A DNA stretch of 64,000 bases from Terriglobia bacterium. Lineage in GTDB: Bacteria > Acidobacteriota > Terriglobia > Acidiferrales > UBA7541. Positions 49,323-55,904 of the stretch are shown piece by piece. Under the pieces are notes generated by a model. The model was not told where the DNA came from. It worked only from the letters and a program-made list of their open reading frames with translations, and did no database searches. Every line of letters starts with the position of its first letter. Position 1 is the stretch's first letter. A program made the position numbers and the translations under genes. The stretch is taken from assembly GCA_020073705.1 (NCBI GenBank), contig JAIQES010000012.1, forward strand, positions 1-64,000, in the 5' to 3' direction.

Positions 49323-50510
49323 TCATACCGCCGCGGCTCGCCTGGCCACCCGTTCCACCTCTTCCAGGGCCACTCGCCGCGCCTCGGAGTCCGCCGCGAG
49401 CACGTCGCTGATCGCGCCCATCTTGATCCTTGGCGTCCGGCCCAGCACGCGCTCAATCACTTCTGCGATCCCCGCAAACGGCAGCCGCCGATCGAGAAAT
49501 GCCTCGACGGCCACCTCGTCGGCCGCGTTAAAGGCGCAGGGATACGCGCCCTTCTTCCGCAATGCTTCACGCGCAAGGCGCAGACAGGGGAACCGCCGCG
49601 ACGAAACCCTTTCGAAATCAAGACGCCGTAACTTACTCCAATCGAGGGCTATTCCATTGGATGCAGCCCGCTCCGGATAGGTTAACGCATATTGGATGGG
49701 CATGCGCATGTCTGTCGGTCCGAGTTGCGCCAAGATGGACCCGTCCACAAACTCCACCAGCGAATGAATCGTGGACTGCGGATGAACCACGACCTCAATC
49801 TGATCCGGGCGCATGTCAAACAACCAATGCGCTTCGATAACCTCAAATCCCTTGTTCACCAGCGTCGCCGAGTCGATCGTGATCCGCCGTCCCATGCGCC
49901 AGTTTGGGTGCGCCAACGCTTGCTCGGGGGTCGCCGAAGCCATTTCCCGCAGCGACGCCTTTCGAAAAGGCCCGCCTGACGCTGTCAGAACCAGGCGTTT
50001 CACTTCGGTGTGCCGCCCGGCGCGCAGGCATTGGTGGATCGCGTTGTGCTCGCTGTCCACGGGCAACAACTCGACGTTTGCCTCGCGCGCCGCGGCCATT
50101 ACGATTTCACCCGCCGCCACCAGCACTTCCTTGTTCGAAAGCGCGACCTGCTTCCCCGTTTTCACCGCCGCATACGTCGCCTCCAGGCCAACCACGCCCA
50201 CCGCCGCGGAAACCACCATCGTTGCATCCGGGTGCGTTGCCACGGCCGTCAGCCCCGCGGCGCCGTGCTGAATTTCCGGAAACTTCGCGAGCCTCTCCGC
50301 GCGCAACCGCTCCGCAAGCTCCGACGCCAGCGCTGCGCTCGCGACAGAGACGAGTTCGGGATGATGCCGCGAAACCTGCTGCGCCAGCTCCTCCATGTTA
50401 TGGCCGGCAGCGAGCGCAACCACACCAAACCGCTCCGGCAGCGCATCAACGACTGCCAGGGTTTGCCGTCCGATTGACCCCGTCGAACCCAAAATGGCAA
50501 TCTGTTTCAA
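49323..50510 (-). CDS. dxr: 1-deoxy-D-xylulose 5-phosphate reductoisomerase
   Basis: Second enzyme of the MEP isoprenoid pathway, which makes MEP from DXP with NADPH. The 395 residues open with the nucleotide-binding loop MKQIAILGSTGSIGRQTLAV. ALSNKEVLVAAGEIVMAAAR follows, then the metal/substrate site LLPVDSEHNAIHQCLRAGRH. Other conserved parts are TASGGPFRK, WRMGRRITIDSATLVNKGFE, HPQSTIHSLVEFVDGSILAQ and AFNAADEVAVEAFL. It sits between cdsA and rseP in the conserved lipid/envelope cluster and supplies precursors for the UppS product. Confidence 0.97.
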   Translation of the reverse strand: MKQIAILGSTGSIGRQTLAVVDALPERFGVVALAAGHNMEELAQQVSRHHPELVSVASAALASELAERLRAERLAKFPEIQHGAAGLTAVATHPDATMVVSAAVGVVGLEATYAAVKTGKQVALSNKEVLVAAGEIVMAAAREANVELLPVDSEHNAIHQCLRAGRHTEVKRLVLTASGGPFRKASLREMASATPEQALAHPNWRMGRRITIDSATLVNKGFEVIEAHWLFDMRPDQIEVVVHPQSTIHSLVEFVDGSILAQLGPTDMRMPIQYALTYPERAASNGIALDWSKLRRLDFERVSSRRFPCLRLAREALRKKGAYPCAFNAADEVAVEAFLDRRLPFAGIAEVIERVLGRTPRIKMGAISDVLAADSEARRVALEEVERVARRAAAV

Positions 50511-50743
50511 TTCGTCTTCCTCACCACATAGCGTGTGGCACTATTGGCATCACTGCTGATTCTGGTGTTTCCATGTGCCCGGCGATCCCTGTGCTGTAGC
50601 CGCCCCGGACAGAGCGGAGCTGCGGTTTCTGCCATTCACAAGAATACGTCCCGCGTCTCAAGTGCAGGCTAGGCATCCCGGCACGGCCAGGGACGCAGCT
50701 ACAACTGCAAGCGGAATTGAAGAGCCAACAATACATGGGCGAT
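50511..50743. repeat. Intergenic region with dispersed-repeat-like sequences between cdsA and dxr
   Basis: A 233-bp gap inside an otherwise compact operon. It contains TGTAGCCGCCCCGGACAGAG near 50597 and GGCATCCCGGCACGGCCAGG near 50672, then GACGCAGCTACA. The words GGACAGAGCG and GCATCCCGGCA recur in the gap at 55738-55795. A small inverted repeat CCACA-TAGCG-TGTGG (50525 region) lies just upstream of dxr. No gene is recognised. Confidence 0.4.
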
Positions 50744-51613
50744 TCAAAACCTTCTCATCACGAACCATTCGAAATAGTACCAGACTGCCGGGGCTGCAAG
50801 AATCAGCGCGTCAATCCGGTCGAGAATTCCTCCATGCCCGGGCAGGATCGTTCCGGAATCCTTTACGCCGGCACTGCGTTTGAATGTCGACTTGAATACG
50901 TCTCCCACCTGCCCCGCGATACTACCGAGAATGGCCATGGCGAGCATGTGCACAGGCTCGATCTTCATCCAATATCCGAACAGGGCGCCCACCAGCAAAG
51001 CACCGAGCAGATTCGCTCCCGCTCCCTCCCACGTCTTGTTCGGACTCACCTGTGGAGACATCTTCATCCGTCCGAAGGCCCTGCCCACGAAGTATGCCGC
51101 TGTGTCCCCAACCCAGACCAGGACTACCGTGAATAGGAGCAGTTGCGGTCCGAGCATATACACGCCGTTCAAACGGACGACCGCGCTGAACGGAATCACG
51201 ATGACGACAAGGCCCGCCGCACTGACCGAAACCGAAGAGAACACCTCGGCCAACGGGCGGCGGCTCCCCAACGCAATTCCTGCAGCGCCCAGAACGAACC
51301 CGAACAGCACCAACTCAAGGGACACTTGAGGAGAGCGCGCCCGATCGAGCAAGTCGACCAGCCTCGAATTACTTGACAACCGCGCCGCGTGCCATTGCTG
51401 CGTAAAAATTCCGAGCGCCGCGAGGCAAGTCCAGAGGCGATAGGCATGAAATCCGATCCGCTCCGCCATGGCGAAAAATTCGAGGAGCGCCAAGACCGCG
51501 ATGATCCCTGCCAATCCTGCCACCAGCCACGTAGGGCCCCACCAAATCGCCGCTACCACTACAGGGATGAGCACCGCCGCTGTCAGTACGCGCAGTTGTG
51601 TCCCGGAACTCAC
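50744..51613 (-). CDS. cdsA: Phosphatidate cytidylyltransferase (CDP-diglyceride synthase)
   Basis: Integral membrane enzyme making CDP-diacylglycerol for phospholipid synthesis. The 289 residues have about eight hydrophobic helices (VLIPVVVAAIWWGPTWLVAG near the N-terminus). The family signature at the C-terminal side is SPNKTWEGAGANLLGALLVG, then GQVGDVFKSTFKRSAGVKDS and ILPGHGGILDRIDALILAAP. These contain the conserved S-x-x-K-R-x-x-K-D-x-x-x-x-x-x-G-H-G-G-x-x-D-R-x-D pattern. It lies between uppS and dxr on the same strand. Confidence 0.96.
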   Translation of the reverse strand: MSSGTQLRVLTAAVLIPVVVAAIWWGPTWLVAGLAGIIAVLALLEFFAMAERIGFHAYRLWTCLAALGIFTQQWHAARLSSNSRLVDLLDRARSPQVSLELVLFGFVLGAAGIALGSRRPLAEVFSSVSVSAAGLVVIVIPFSAVVRLNGVYMLGPQLLLFTVVLVWVGDTAAYFVGRAFGRMKMSPQVSPNKTWEGAGANLLGALLVGALFGYWMKIEPVHMLAMAILGSIAGQVGDVFKSTFKRSAGVKDSGTILPGHGGILDRIDALILAAPAVWYYFEWFVMRRF

Positions 51614-51789
51614 GGAATGCCTCCCTCCTTTCTATTGTGTCTCGTGGACAGGCCCATCCGCATCATGCACGGAAATCAAGTTTCTGAAGGCAAACCAACA
51701 TTTTCGCAAGATTGGCACAATTCATTCCGGAATCGTTGCACGTGTGCCGGGTTAGGAAACCTCAAATCTGAAAAAGGTGTGCGACGCAC

Positions 51790-52602
51790 TCAGACGGTGA
51801 CACGCTGCCGCGTTTCCGCCAGACCGCCGTACCGCCGCTCGCGCTTCTGAAAATCGAGCAGGGCCTCATAGAGTTGGGCGCGTGTGAAATCAGGCCACAA
51901 CGTCTCGGTCACATAAATTTCGGCGTATGCAATCTGCCACAGTAGAAAATTGCTCACGCGCATCTCTCCGCTCGTGCGGATCAGCAAATCTGGATCGGGT
52001 AATCCAGCCGTGTACAGATACTGCGAGATCGTTTCCTCATCCACGCGCGCGTTGGCCAGGCCATTGTTCCGCACACGATCGAGGATGCGGTTGAACGCAT
52101 CCACCAGCTCCGCGCGGCCGCCATAATTCAGGGCCACCGCGAGTTTCATGCCCGAGTTCTCCGCCGTTTGCTCCATCGCCCGCACGACATCCGCGCGCAC
52201 CGCAGCGGGCAATTGGTCCGGGCGGCCAATGACCAGCAGGCGGATGTTATTTCGATGAATCACGGGAAGTTCTTTACGCAAATACTCACGCAGGAGACGC
52301 ATCAGAAAATCAATTTCCGCTTTTGGGCGGCGCCAGTTCTCCATGGAAAAGGCGTACAGGGTAAGTGCGGGAATTTTCAGCCGCGCGCAGGTCTCGATCA
52401 CTGTCCGGGCGGACAGCACACCGGCGCGGTGCCCCGCAATACGCGGCAGGTGACGCCGCTGTGCCCAGCGACCGTTGCCGTCCATAATCACGGCAATGTG
52501 CTGCGGTAGCCGGTTTGCGTCAAGCTCAGCAAGCAGTCTCTCTTCCTCGCCGCCTGATGGTTTGAGAGAGTCGGGTGCTTTCACGCGATTATTCCTGAGC
52601 AT
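51790..52602 (-). CDS. uppS: Isoprenyl transferase (undecaprenyl diphosphate synthase)
   Basis: Cis-prenyltransferase building the undecaprenyl carrier for cell-wall and O-antigen synthesis. ATG 52602 gives 270 residues. The frame is open 44 codons further upstream but without conserved sequence. The core has LPQHIAVIMDGNGRWAQRRH with the catalytic Asp, HRAGVLSARTVIETCARLKI, LTLYAFSMENWRRPKAEIDF, ALNYGGRAELVDAFNRIL and PDPDLLIRTSGEMRVSNFLL, then WQIAYAEIYVTETLWPDFTR. It heads the uppS-cdsA-dxr-rseP cluster, with 176 bp before cdsA. Confidence 0.96.
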   Translation of the reverse strand: MLRNNRVKAPDSLKPSGGEEERLLAELDANRLPQHIAVIMDGNGRWAQRRHLPRIAGHRAGVLSARTVIETCARLKIPALTLYAFSMENWRRPKAEIDFLMRLLREYLRKELPVIHRNNIRLLVIGRPDQLPAAVRADVVRAMEQTAENSGMKLAVALNYGGRAELVDAFNRILDRVRNNGLANARVDEETISQYLYTAGLPDPDLLIRTSGEMRVSNFLLWQIAYAEIYVTETLWPDFTRAQLYEALLDFQKRERRYGGLAETRQRVTV

Positions 52603-52815
52603 CCCACGTAACGGGTTGAGGCCGATGCGCCCACATTTCAATGTTGGAAAGTTAACATACAGCATCACACCGCGCAACACGCTCGGCGTAACTTTCCCTG
52701 AGAATTGATAGGCATGCGAATGGCGTATCTCCATCTGAGCTTCTGATCAATGGAGAGCGCACACACCTGCCAGGCTCAGCGTGCCCAATCAATTTTTACT
52801 GCTCGGCTAGCAGGA

Positions 52816-54207
52816 TTATAAGCCTGGGAGGCGGGGAACGCTGCCGGAATGGAAGATGCCTACATAGACCAGGACGAGGGTGAGAACGATCATGGCAACG
52901 GTGGTGACCCAGGCGATGACGTTGAACGTGCGCGTGTTCACCAAGTCACCCATCAGGTCGCGGCGATTCACAAGCAATAGGATGAAAATCAACACGACGG
53001 GAAGCCAGACGCCGTTGCCGACCTGCGAGAGAACAAGAATCTTCTGGAGCGGCGCTCGTGGAATGAGGATCACGGCAGCGCCGACTGCGATCATGCCGGT
53101 ATACAGGCTGTAGAAAATCGGAGCATCATTGAACTTGTGATCGATCCCCGCTTCAAAGCCCATGCCCTCGCAAATCACGTGCGCGGTTGACAAGGGCAAG
53201 ATGGATGCGGCAAATAGAGACGCGTTCAGGAGCCCGAACGCGAATAGCATCCCGGCCCACTTCCCTGCCAGTGGGACCAATGCTTGGGCGGCCTCGCTGG
53301 CGTCGGTGATGTTGAAATGTCCCGTGGCATGCAATGTCGCGGCGGTACAAATGATGATGAAGAAAACGATTACCATGCAACTTATGCTGCCGACCAGCAC
53401 ATCCGCGCGGGCCTGGGGGTATTGGCGGCGCGCCACGCGCTTCTCCACGACCGCAGCCTGCAAATAGAAGAATTGCCATGGAGCGATGGTTGTGCCAACC
53501 AGCGCGGTCAGCATGAGCAAGTATCCGCCATCGAGATGCATCGTGGGGATTACGGTGTTCTTTGCCGCAAGCACCCATTCGGGTTTCGCTAGAAACGCGG
53601 ATGCGATATATGACAAATAGAGGACACAGGCGGCTAGAAAGATCTTTTCGACGGCACGCGCCGTTCCCCGCATCACCAGAAACCCCACAGCGAGCGCCGC
53701 AATCGGCACGGATATGTATTTTGAGATTCCGAAAATCTGCATGGAAGCGGCCACGCCGGCAAACTCCGCCGCGACGTTGCCCATATCCACGATGAGCCCG
53801 GCGAGGATCAGGAAAAAAGTGGGGCGAAAACCGAATTCCTCGCGAATCAGGTCGGAAAGACCTTTGCCCGTCACCACGCCCATCCGCGCGCACATTTCCT
53901 CCGTAACGTAGAGGGCGATCGTCATGGGGATCAGCGACCATAGCAGTGCGTAGCCGTACTTTGCGCCTACCTGCGAGTACACCGAAATGCCGCCGGCATC
54001 GTTGTCCACGTTGGATGTGATTACACCCGGACCAACCACCGCCAGGAACAAAAGCAGGCGGCGGCGCCAGAAGCGCGTTGTCTTGCCCCACGCGGCCAGG
54101 CGTTCGCGCCAGGGCTCGACCCAGCCAGGGACGAGCTTCCACCGTGCGACGGGCGTGGAATTCTGCGCCGGCTGCTTCGCTTCTTCGTCTTTGCGCAGTC
54201 CTGCCAC
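52816..54207 (-). CDS. Atypical Nramp-family (SLC11-related) metal transporter lacking the DPGN and MPH motifs
   Basis: 463-residue polytopic protein with 11-12 helices and Nramp architecture. Helix 1 reads LAVVGPGVITSNVDNDAGGI: the canonical DPGN is replaced by Thr64-Ser-Asn-Val67 and followed by Asp68-Asn-Asp70. Helix 6 reads ALVGTTIAPWQFFYLQAAVV, so the conserved Met-Pro-His is Ala242-Pro-Trp244. Both positions supply the Mn2+/Fe2+ ligands in classical MntH. Loss of the helix-6 Met is a known feature of Nramp-related Mg2+ transporters. An N-terminal extension of about 48 residues is charged. The gene lies 32 bp after a soluble PRC-MgtE_N-CBS gene. Substrate unproven: an Mg2+-like hard metal is favoured over Mn2+. 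Confidence 0.88.
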   Translation of the reverse strand: MAGLRKDEEAKQPAQNSTPVARWKLVPGWVEPWRERLAAWGKTTRFWRRRLLLFLAVVGPGVITSNVDNDAGGISVYSQVGAKYGYALLWSLIPMTIALYVTEEMCARMGVVTGKGLSDLIREEFGFRPTFFLILAGLIVDMGNVAAEFAGVAASMQIFGISKYISVPIAALAVGFLVMRGTARAVEKIFLAACVLYLSYIASAFLAKPEWVLAAKNTVIPTMHLDGGYLLMLTALVGTTIAPWQFFYLQAAVVEKRVARRQYPQARADVLVGSISCMVIVFFIIICTAATLHATGHFNITDASEAAQALVPLAGKWAGMLFAFGLLNASLFAASILPLSTAHVICEGMGFEAGIDHKFNDAPIFYSLYTGMIAVGAAVILIPRAPLQKILVLSQVGNGVWLPVVLIFILLLVNRRDLMGDLVNTRTFNVIAWVTTVAMIVLTLVLVYVGIFHSGSVPRLPGL

Positions 54208-54239
54208 GTTTCCAACCTTCCTGACTTACCCTAGTTTGT

Positions 54240-55478
54240 TTACCGCTTCCTCAAGCGCGTGACAATGTCGTCCACGGCAATGGCTCCGATGGGGTGACCG
54301 GCCTTATCCACCACTGCCAGGCTGTGCAGATTGTACTTGTCGAAAAGCTCAAATACTTCTTTCTCCTGTGCGTCCGGCGCCACCGAGAGCAGCGGCTCCG
54401 CCTTCAACGCTTCCATCCGCTCGTCCGCAGGTGCGAGTAAGAGGCGTCCGACGGCGACGGCGCCGGTGAGTTTTGCGTCGCCGTCGATGAGAAATATGGT
54501 ATCGAGCTGTTCCAGGTCCACATCCTTTTCGTGAATCCATGCGACCACTTCTTCACGTGTCGCCGTTTCGCCCACGTATATGAAATCGGTATTCATCATT
54601 CCGCCGGCGGAGCTTTCTTCAAACTTCAGCAGTTCGCGCACCTCGCGGGCTTCTTCGCCCGGCATTTCGCGCAGGACGTCACGCGAGCTTTCCGGCGTCA
54701 AACCTGCCAGCACATCAGCGGCCTGATCCGGGTCCATTTCTTCCAAAATGTCCGCCGCCTTTTCCGGGTCCAGAGTCTCGACGATTTGCGTGGTCAGCCG
54801 CTTGTCCAGCTCGGCGAGCGCTTCCGCGGCGGTTTCCTCATCGAGCGACGCAACGATCGACTGCCGCTCGACGGGAGACAATTCTTCCATGATGTCTGCC
54901 AGGTCGGCTGGGTGCATCCGCTCCAGTTTCTGATGCGTGATGCGCAGCTTCACGCGGCGGAGCGGATCGGATTCGATCAGGTTGACGAATTCCCAGGGGA
55001 TCAGGCGTGTTGGCAGCTTGGTCGCGAGTCCGCGAATCAGCCCCGGCGAGGCCACGCCGTGGAGCAGGCGTCGCGCCGCACCGGTCAGACCCACATCCAC
55101 CTGCGTAACGCGCAATTCGACGGTCCCGTTGGTTCGGTGCTCGGAAAGGTCAATATCATTGACCCTGACTACTTTCCGGCCGCTGGTGTCGATGATCTGT
55201 TGGTCGAGTAAATCTTTGCGCAGGGCAAGCCAGCCTTCATTCGGACGGTAATGCTCCAGCTCCTTTTCCTCGACGTTCAATTTGAGGACGCCCGGAGCAA
55301 CGAAGGCGAGGTGATCATAGCGTGCGACCAGAGGGAGATACTTCCCGCGCCCGAGCAGCATGCGAGCAACCCGGTTCGGCTGGTCGGCAGGTTCGATAAA
55401 AAGTTCGCTGACGTGACCGACAAAATGGCCGTCACGATCATAGACTTCTCCGCCCAAAAGCTCTGTAGCGTGCAGCAT
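54240..55478 (-). CDS. Soluble PRC-barrel / MgtE-N / CBS protein, candidate metal sensor for the adjacent transporter
   Basis: 412 residues without transmembrane helices. PRC-barrel-like units are at about 1-150 (LLGGEVYDRDGHFVGHVSEL, DTSGRKVVRVNDIDL). An MgtE N-terminal superhelical domain follows at about 185-290 (LERMHPADLADIMEELSPVE, ETLDPEKAADILEEMDPDQA, ADVLAGLTPESSRDVLREMP). A tandem CBS pair closes the protein at about 295-412 (GGMMNTDFIYVGETATREEV, YNLHSLAVVDKAGHPIGAIA). In MgtE channels the N and CBS domains sense cytosolic Mg2+ and gate the pore, but here the pore is absent. AAGGAGG precedes the ATG. Co-transcribed with the Nramp-like gene downstream. Confidence 0.88.
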   Translation of the reverse strand: MLHATELLGGEVYDRDGHFVGHVSELFIEPADQPNRVARMLLGRGKYLPLVARYDHLAFVAPGVLKLNVEEKELEHYRPNEGWLALRKDLLDQQIIDTSGRKVVRVNDIDLSEHRTNGTVELRVTQVDVGLTGAARRLLHGVASPGLIRGLATKLPTRLIPWEFVNLIESDPLRRVKLRITHQKLERMHPADLADIMEELSPVERQSIVASLDEETAAEALAELDKRLTTQIVETLDPEKAADILEEMDPDQAADVLAGLTPESSRDVLREMPGEEAREVRELLKFEESSAGGMMNTDFIYVGETATREEVVAWIHEKDVDLEQLDTIFLIDGDAKLTGAVAVGRLLLAPADERMEALKAEPLLSVAPDAQEKEVFELFDKYNLHSLAVVDKAGHPIGAIAVDDIVTRLRKR

Positions 55479-55904
55479 ATCGCCTCCTTTCTTCGCGCCG
55501 CGTGCCAGGTCCGGGATGCGGCCATTCGGCTTATTATCATAAACTTATAAGCAGCGCATGATTCTGAAACCGATCCGATAGCCTGTGGGCCTCATCGCCG
55601 GCCGAATCAAGTGGTTTCCTGTGGCGCGGATTCGGAAAACAAAAGACCCGCGACCAGGGGTGTAGCCCGGCCGCGGGTGGTTGCGGTTTCCTCGCTCTAC
55701 CCGAGGCGCGTGCGGCACCGTTTCAAAACACGACGCATTGGCATCCCGGCAGCCCTTGACTGTGCCAGACGAGGACAGAGCGCCGCTACGTCCTTGCTAC
55801 TCGGAAAGGGTTCTTGCGCTGCTGATTCGCTCATTTCCGGACGAAAAAACTCCAACACAGTTAGGTAAACGGAGTTGAGATTTTTGTCAAGGAAAGAGTG
55901 CGTG
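55479..55904. other. Regulatory/intergenic region upstream of the PRC-MgtE_N-CBS gene
   Basis: About 425 bp between two reverse-strand genes. It contains an intrinsic terminator (see 55636-55679), a repeat-like block at 55738-55795 sharing GCATCCCGGCA and GGACAGAGCG with the gap at 50.6 kb, and an AT-rich stretch read on the reverse strand as CTTATAAGTTTATGATAATA near 55528-55552, a possible promoter. No gene is recognised, and I do not recognise a known metal riboswitch class. Confidence 0.4.
55636..55679 (-). terminator. Intrinsic terminator upstream of the metal-transport operon
   Basis: On the reverse strand ACCCGCGGCC pairs with GGTCGCGGGT (one G-T wobble), enclosing a small GGG/CCC inner helix, and is followed by CTTTTGTTTT. 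It lies 225 nt past the CYTH gene stop and about 160 nt before the PRC-MgtE_N-CBS start. It may therefore end the CYTH transcript or act as a leader attenuator for the metal genes. Confidence 0.65.

Follow-up and report, generated by a model that had tools for sequence, protein, structure and literature searches.

In E. coli, complete translation of the MgtL leader peptide keeps mgtA switched off; when Mg2+ is low, the ribosome drops off at the EPDP sequence of MgtL and mgtA is transcribed (PMC11282234). In Salmonella, mgtB is controlled in a comparable manner by acidic (Asp/Glu) codons of mgtQ, which acts on translation from within the mgtCBR operon, while mgtM and mgtP in the leader of the same operon sense ATP and charged tRNA-Pro (PMC8092293). 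These short ORFs have in common that acidic or proline codons, together with alternative stem-loops, control a Mg2+ transporter. Mycobacterium tuberculosis likewise has a Mg2+-responsive operon whose leader contains a small conserved ORF, uORF2, with N-terminal conservation that includes a proline; control there is by an M-box aptamer and Rho (PMC12810186).

The NRMT branch of the SLC11 transporters is defined by a DxxG and a TxxA motif, and its structurally characterized member, EleNRMT (7QIA), carries Mn2+ as well as Mg2+ in vitro (PMC8806188). Shin et al. (2014) named NrmT and described a gene for an MgtE-like fragment beside most members of the group (PMC4072509). The NrmT of Acidobacterium capsulatum, which they tested, rescued a Mn2+-uptake mutant fully and a Mg2+-uptake mutant weakly, and co-expression of the fragment brought no gain in Mg2+ rescue (PMC4072509). 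Thus, Mg2+ need not be the metal carried by all members of the group, and gating by the fragment is a proposal. The known Mg2+-responsive NRMTs lie behind an M-box riboswitch.

We describe herein an NRMT operon from a Terriglobia bacterium of the order Ca. Acidiferrales, a group of soil bacteria (assembly GCA_020073705.1). In this operon a leader ORF, a predicted antiterminator and an intrinsic terminator stand in the place of the M-box. All positions refer to the window, that is, the whole stretch of 64,000 nucleotides of contig JAIQES010000012.1 that was analysed. Our main reading, to which we give a probability of roughly 0.6, is that leader, MgtE_N-CBS gene and NRMT gene form a Mg2+-uptake operon, governed by a translation-dependent leader switch and with the MgtE_N-CBS protein serving as a brake or monitor. 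A switch of this kind looks to be undescribed in the literature searched.

The transporter gene (52816-54207, minus strand; 463 aa, GTG start; Pfam Nramp, 302 bits) and the partner gene upstream of it (54240-55478, minus strand; 412 aa) had both been flagged in an initial annotation of this DNA, and their ORFs, Pfam matches and 32 bp spacing were all confirmed. Among PDB entries, the transporter matched EleNRMT best (7qia; 340 bits, E=2e-100), with MntH at 119 bits (E=3e-33), and a maximum-likelihood tree placed it inside a 32-row clade with EleNRMT (support 98/94). The same clade also takes in NRMTs that lie behind M-box Mg2+ riboswitches; MntH and the DDDPSG/ISPY Nramp outgroup fall outside it. 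Alignment to 7qia and DraNramp sets the helix-1 metal motif at D70-A-G-G73 (53989-54000, minus strand), the equivalent of DPGN, and the helix-6 motif at T239-T-I-A242, followed by P243-W244 (53482-53493, minus strand), so that the DxxG and TxxA/T motifs of NRMTs are both present. The annotation had rightly read Ala242-Pro-Trp244 in place of MPH and had rightly seen that DNDAGG is kept; it had misaligned helix 1, however, by assigning TSNV (residues 64-67) to the DPGN position, which belongs to the DAGG within DNDAGG itself. Since the metal-binding Asp is retained and only Asn has become Gly, its description of a transporter without its metal-binding motifs was too strong. Judged by its sequence, the protein is an ordinary NRMT of an already known kind, sharing the transporter clade, the DxxG/TxxA motifs and the adjacent MgtE-cytosolic-domain gene with C. 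acetobutylicum Ca_c0685, EleNRMT and the nrmT of A. capsulatum (PMC4072509, PMC8806188).

Mg2+ is probably the main substrate of this transporter. This view derives from relatives 54-60% identical to it in which an M-box lies directly before the same gene pair (L092, L110, L115, L116, L121, L124 and L140), and from the inventory of the source genome (97% complete), in which neither CorA nor an MgtE pore was found, while a second, canonical MntH with DPGN and MPH is present, along with one MgtA-type ATPase. A physiological importer of Mn2+ (or of divalent metals in general), with the MgtE_N-CBS gene in some other role, would fit the rescue pattern of the A. capsulatum NrmT (PMC4072509); such an importer is unlikely here, given the separate MntH, the missing CorA and MgtE pore, the presence in the sister clade of the M-box-controlled transporter of L092, itself from an acidobacterium, and the Mg2+ transport by EleNRMT in vitro (PMC8806188). 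In the order, CorA passed the cut-off in 7 of 61 genomes and the MgtE pore in 2 of them, NRMT was nearly universal and an M-box was found in none. NRMT appears to be the order's main Mg2+ importer.

The partner consists of the cytosolic part of an MgtE channel with a PRC barrel added in front, as the initial annotation had proposed. Pfam places PRC at residues 3-33, the MgtE_N superhelix at 188-288 (54615-54917, minus strand) and CBS at 361-409, and similarity to MgtE over residues 173-408 indicates a CBS pair. Neither a plug helix nor the pore domain PF01769 was found in it, and no membrane segment was detected, its maximum Kyte-Doolittle-19 value being 1.07 as compared to 2.78 for the transporter. 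An AlphaFold model (mean pLDDT 84) was best matched by the MgtE cytosolic domain (2YVY). With metal- and ATP-site residues assigned after PMC5529423 and PMC5882242, the partner's E219, D251, D255 and D404 (the last in CBS) correspond, in this order, to E59 (Mg7), D91 (Mg4), D95 (Mg6; kept in 12 of 13 partners) and D247 (Mg4) of T. thermophilus MgtE. On the contrary, the Mg5 residues D226 and D250 and the ATP-site residues Y170, R187, D188 and F227 have been lost. Mg2+-dependent closure of the domains therefore seems plausible from the residues kept, and ATP binding of the MgtE kind does not. Between the PRC barrel and MgtE_N, at residues of about 86-128 (55095-55223), lies a strongly conserved stretch, LLDxQIIDxxGRKVVRVNDV, to which Pfam assigns no domain. 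It resembles a further barrel of the PRC type and might be the surface that contacts the transporter.

The initial annotation had named rare adjacency in other genomes as grounds for refutation; on the contrary, the pairing of the two genes is the rule. The partner lies directly upstream at every NRMT locus of the order fetched with enough flank, and within the fetched flank at 59 of 80 named loci from Acidobacteriota, Myxococcota, Thermodesulfobacteriota, Nitrospirota, Bacillota and other phyla. In a distant NRMT-like clade of Acidobacteriota with a VADNDAGG motif (L064-L069), the MgtE_N-CBS gene stands downstream of the transporter instead of upstream, so the association outlasts a change of gene order; the DDDPSG outgroup has no adjacent partner gene. 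The central idea of the initial annotation, a transporter for hard metals served by a separate sensor of the MgtE type, agrees with this evidence, but the pairing, Acidobacterium included, is already known from Shin et al. (2014) (PMC4072509). Apparent NRMT-MgtE_N fusions at L049, L052 and L071, which would have spoken for contact between the two proteins, proved to be stop-free read-through frames. Granulicella rosea and one related Acidobacteria genome carry a conserved gene of about 350 aa, glycosyltransferase-like as judged by eye, between MgtE_N-CBS and NRMT (L123:2898-3977 and L139:2834-3874), and gaps of a similar 1.1 kb occur at L131, L154 and L160.

Control of the operon is where this locus departs from described NRMTs. 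The same annotation had remarked in passing that a terminator about 160 nt upstream may add leader control; this was a good hint, and the leader turned out to be the most interesting part of the locus. It sits, in the order, between a CYTH gene and the MgtE_N gene. Its predicted promoter, TTGACA-17 nt-TACCTA (55862-55890, minus strand), follows a pattern shared by almost all of the order's leaders, namely TTGAC[ATC], a spacer of 17-18 nt and a -10-like hexamer (TAnnnn). At a median distance of 26 nt past the -10 element begins an ORF of 45-68 codons, which in the window (55697-55834, minus strand) encodes the 45 aa MSESAAQEPFPSSKDVAALCPRLAQSRAAGMPMRRVLKRCRTRLG. The N-termini of these peptides vary around M-S-x-x-S-[E/N]-x-[E/D]-P-x-[P/S/G]; 39 of the order's 54 leaders, including that of the window, have the near-N-terminal [E/D]P motif, as do L082 and L083. 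In the window it reads E8-P9-F10-P11 (55802-55813, minus strand), a candidate ribosome-destabilising motif comparable to the EPDP of MgtL (PMC11282234).

Synonymous codons alternate at the Glu/Asp positions (GAA/GAG, GAC/GAT) and the Pro positions (CCT/CCC/CCG) of the leader ORF. In the best-sampled cluster, mismatch at codon positions 1/2/3 is 0.21/0.15/0.24 over codons 2-13 and 0.17/0.10/0.25 at the end, as compared to 0.40/0.43/0.37 for the middle; thus, both ends of the ORF are conserved and the middle is not. A motif-bearing ORF reaches the terminator in 41 of 41 leaders, whereas shuffling predicts 0.11. This contrast sets an upper bound on the signal, since the leaders share common descent and were selected for the [E/D]P motif, which about a quarter of the order's leaders do not carry. 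The Shine-Dalgarno signal is moderate (median -5.2 versus -2.9 shuffled; 25 of 41 below -4). In two deep genomes of the order, G005 and G007, the leader ORF is missing between promoter and terminator (L209 and L212), which may mean that the terminator predates the peptide. Most clusters, though not the window's, also conserve a purine-rich stretch resembling GGGAGG some 15-20 nt ahead of the leader stop codon.

The leader ORF stops shortly before the intrinsic terminator, which is real: a hairpin of 13 pairs, 10 of them GC (55646-55678, minus strand; -25.9 kcal/mol), followed by CUUUUGUUUU; from its end to the start codon of MgtE_N there are 167 nt. The 5' arm of this hairpin can also pair with the stop codon of the ORF and the two to three codons that precede it, with a second helix inside. 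In the window, the predicted antiterminator joins CCUCGGGU (55699-55706, minus strand), which covers the last codons and the first base of the stop codon, to the shared arm ACCCGCGG (55671-55678, minus strand), which would serve both as antiterminator 3' arm and as terminator 5' arm; the duplex has a predicted energy of -17.5 kcal/mol. The same antiterminator is the consensus fold of 38 leaders once the terminator 3' arm is omitted. Its pairs are kept in 81.1% of cells versus 75.2% after shuffling, every slid version being far lower, and its covariation is 0.226 versus 0.150 shuffled, a value reached in 0 of 500 shuffles. Native arms pair better than swapped ones among 21 representatives (-15.3 versus -13.8 kcal/mol, p=0.004), and different clusters attain the same pairing by different sequences, as in GGCGGC/GCCGCC, CCGACC/GGTCGG, CCGGCC/GGCCGG and CGGGT/ACCCG. 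Compared with shuffles, the folding energy of the pre-terminator RNA stands out only modestly (mean z-score -0.7), and in the consensus fold on the mixed alignment the covariation term is a net penalty. The predicted pairing, the conservation of pairs and their covariation suggest that antiterminator and terminator may be mutually exclusive.

A promoter, an ORF and a terminator also make a complete unit, so that the leader might be read as an independent small gene, for a small protein or an sRNA, adjoining an operon with its own promoter. The 167 nt between terminator and MgtE_N in the window would leave room for this, and a hidden promoter could lie within them. In at least 10 genomes, however, the terminator ends only 32-60 nt before the MgtE_N start codon, which makes a separate operon promoter unlikely there. 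The predicted antiterminator is conserved and covarying, the element is found only before the NRMT operon, and conservation is missing from the middle of the peptide; taken together, these points leave the small gene improbable. The architecture of promoter, leader ORF, predicted antiterminator and terminator is well supported.

The closest parallel to that leader is mgtL of mgtA in E. coli and Salmonella (PMC11282234), with which it shares an N-terminal acidic-proline motif, predicted alternative RNA structures, a probable Mg2+ importer downstream and the predicted polarity of control. MgtL is short and works through a Rho-dependent terminator, whereas the ORFs described here have 45-68 codons, overlap at their end with a predicted antiterminator and precede an intrinsic terminator; sequence, phylum and transporter all differ as well. 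The homologous short peptide and the Rho-dependent terminator before mgtA that mark the enterobacterial family are both absent from this leader. Early acidic and proline codons in a short ORF upstream of a Mg2+ transporter gene, a feature of the MgtL type, are nonetheless present in 39 of 54 leaders. We therefore regard the leader as a new form of the mgtL kind of attenuator and not as a member of the mgtL family. It differs from mgtQ in that it would not act on translation from within the operon, from mgtM and mgtP in the signal proposed (PMC8092293), and from the uORF2 leader in that the window contains no M-box (PMC12810186).

We infer the following course of events, including translation of the leader, ribosome drop-off, the direction of control and the role of Mg2+ as the signal. 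With enough Mg2+, the ribosome would reach the leader stop codon and mask the 5' arm of the antiterminator, the terminator would form and the operon would be off. When Mg2+ is low, ribosomes would be lost at the Glu/Asp-Pro motif near the start of the peptide; the 3' part of the ORF, left bare, would pair with the terminator 5' arm, and transcription would read through and switch the importer on. The MgtE_N-CBS protein would then most likely restrain or monitor the transporter in a Mg2+-dependent way, as does the same domain within MgtE.

A translation-coupled attenuator could also respond to something other than Mg2+, for example charged tRNA-Pro, EF-P activity or the general fitness of the ribosome, with the proline codons stalling the ribosome and not destabilising it. 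Salmonella mgtP offers a precedent, as it responds to charged tRNA-Pro (PMC8092293), and [E/D]P-x-P is present in 24 of the 41 leaders. The other 17 have no second proline, however, which makes Glu/Asp-Pro, and not poly-proline, the common core, and the genes downstream are Mg2+ genes. For these reasons, we consider a signal of this sort rather unlikely, and Mg2+ remains the signal that we prefer.

A covariance model finds the leader element at the NRMT operon, usually once per genome, and detected nothing convincing elsewhere in the order or class; one additional R1 hit, a weak one at G000:C21, falls within a gene resembling nuoL and is due to chance. The source genome's own mgtA-type ATPase gene has no such leader in front. 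Among Rfam elements searched in the window, the M-box included, none has a genuine match in the leader, and a mir-451 match of 26 bits on the terminator hairpin is weak and spurious.

The element occupies the position held by the M-box in other phyla. Whether the order independently evolved a ribosome-based Mg2+ sensor that replaced the M-box, in front of what became its main Mg2+ importer after the loss of CorA and MgtE, appears to us evenly balanced. A relation between CorA loss and presence of an [E/D]P leader (0/39 versus 6/15) was set aside as key evidence, as it is confounded by phylogeny. Two CorA-bearing genomes, G023 and G048, have acidic/proline-rich leaders of another spelling, with which the count becomes 2/43 versus 4/12 (p=0.017), so that CorA loss and leader presence are imperfectly linked. 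If the proposed switch is true, Mg2+ sensing through aborted translation at acidic/proline codons arose again outside the enterobacteria, in a distant phylum and with another transporter family, and ribosome-based control holds the place of the relatives' RNA aptamer. The same two genes would then offer a clean natural comparison of riboswitch and ribosome-based control. An order with NRMT as its apparent main Mg2+ importer is also a good place to settle the role of the MgtE-like fragment, a question dating from 2014.

Directly downstream of the NRMT gene and on the same strand (49323-52734, minus strand) are genes that read by eye as uppS, cdsA and dxr; the transporter may thus be co-transcribed with isoprenoid and phospholipid genes.
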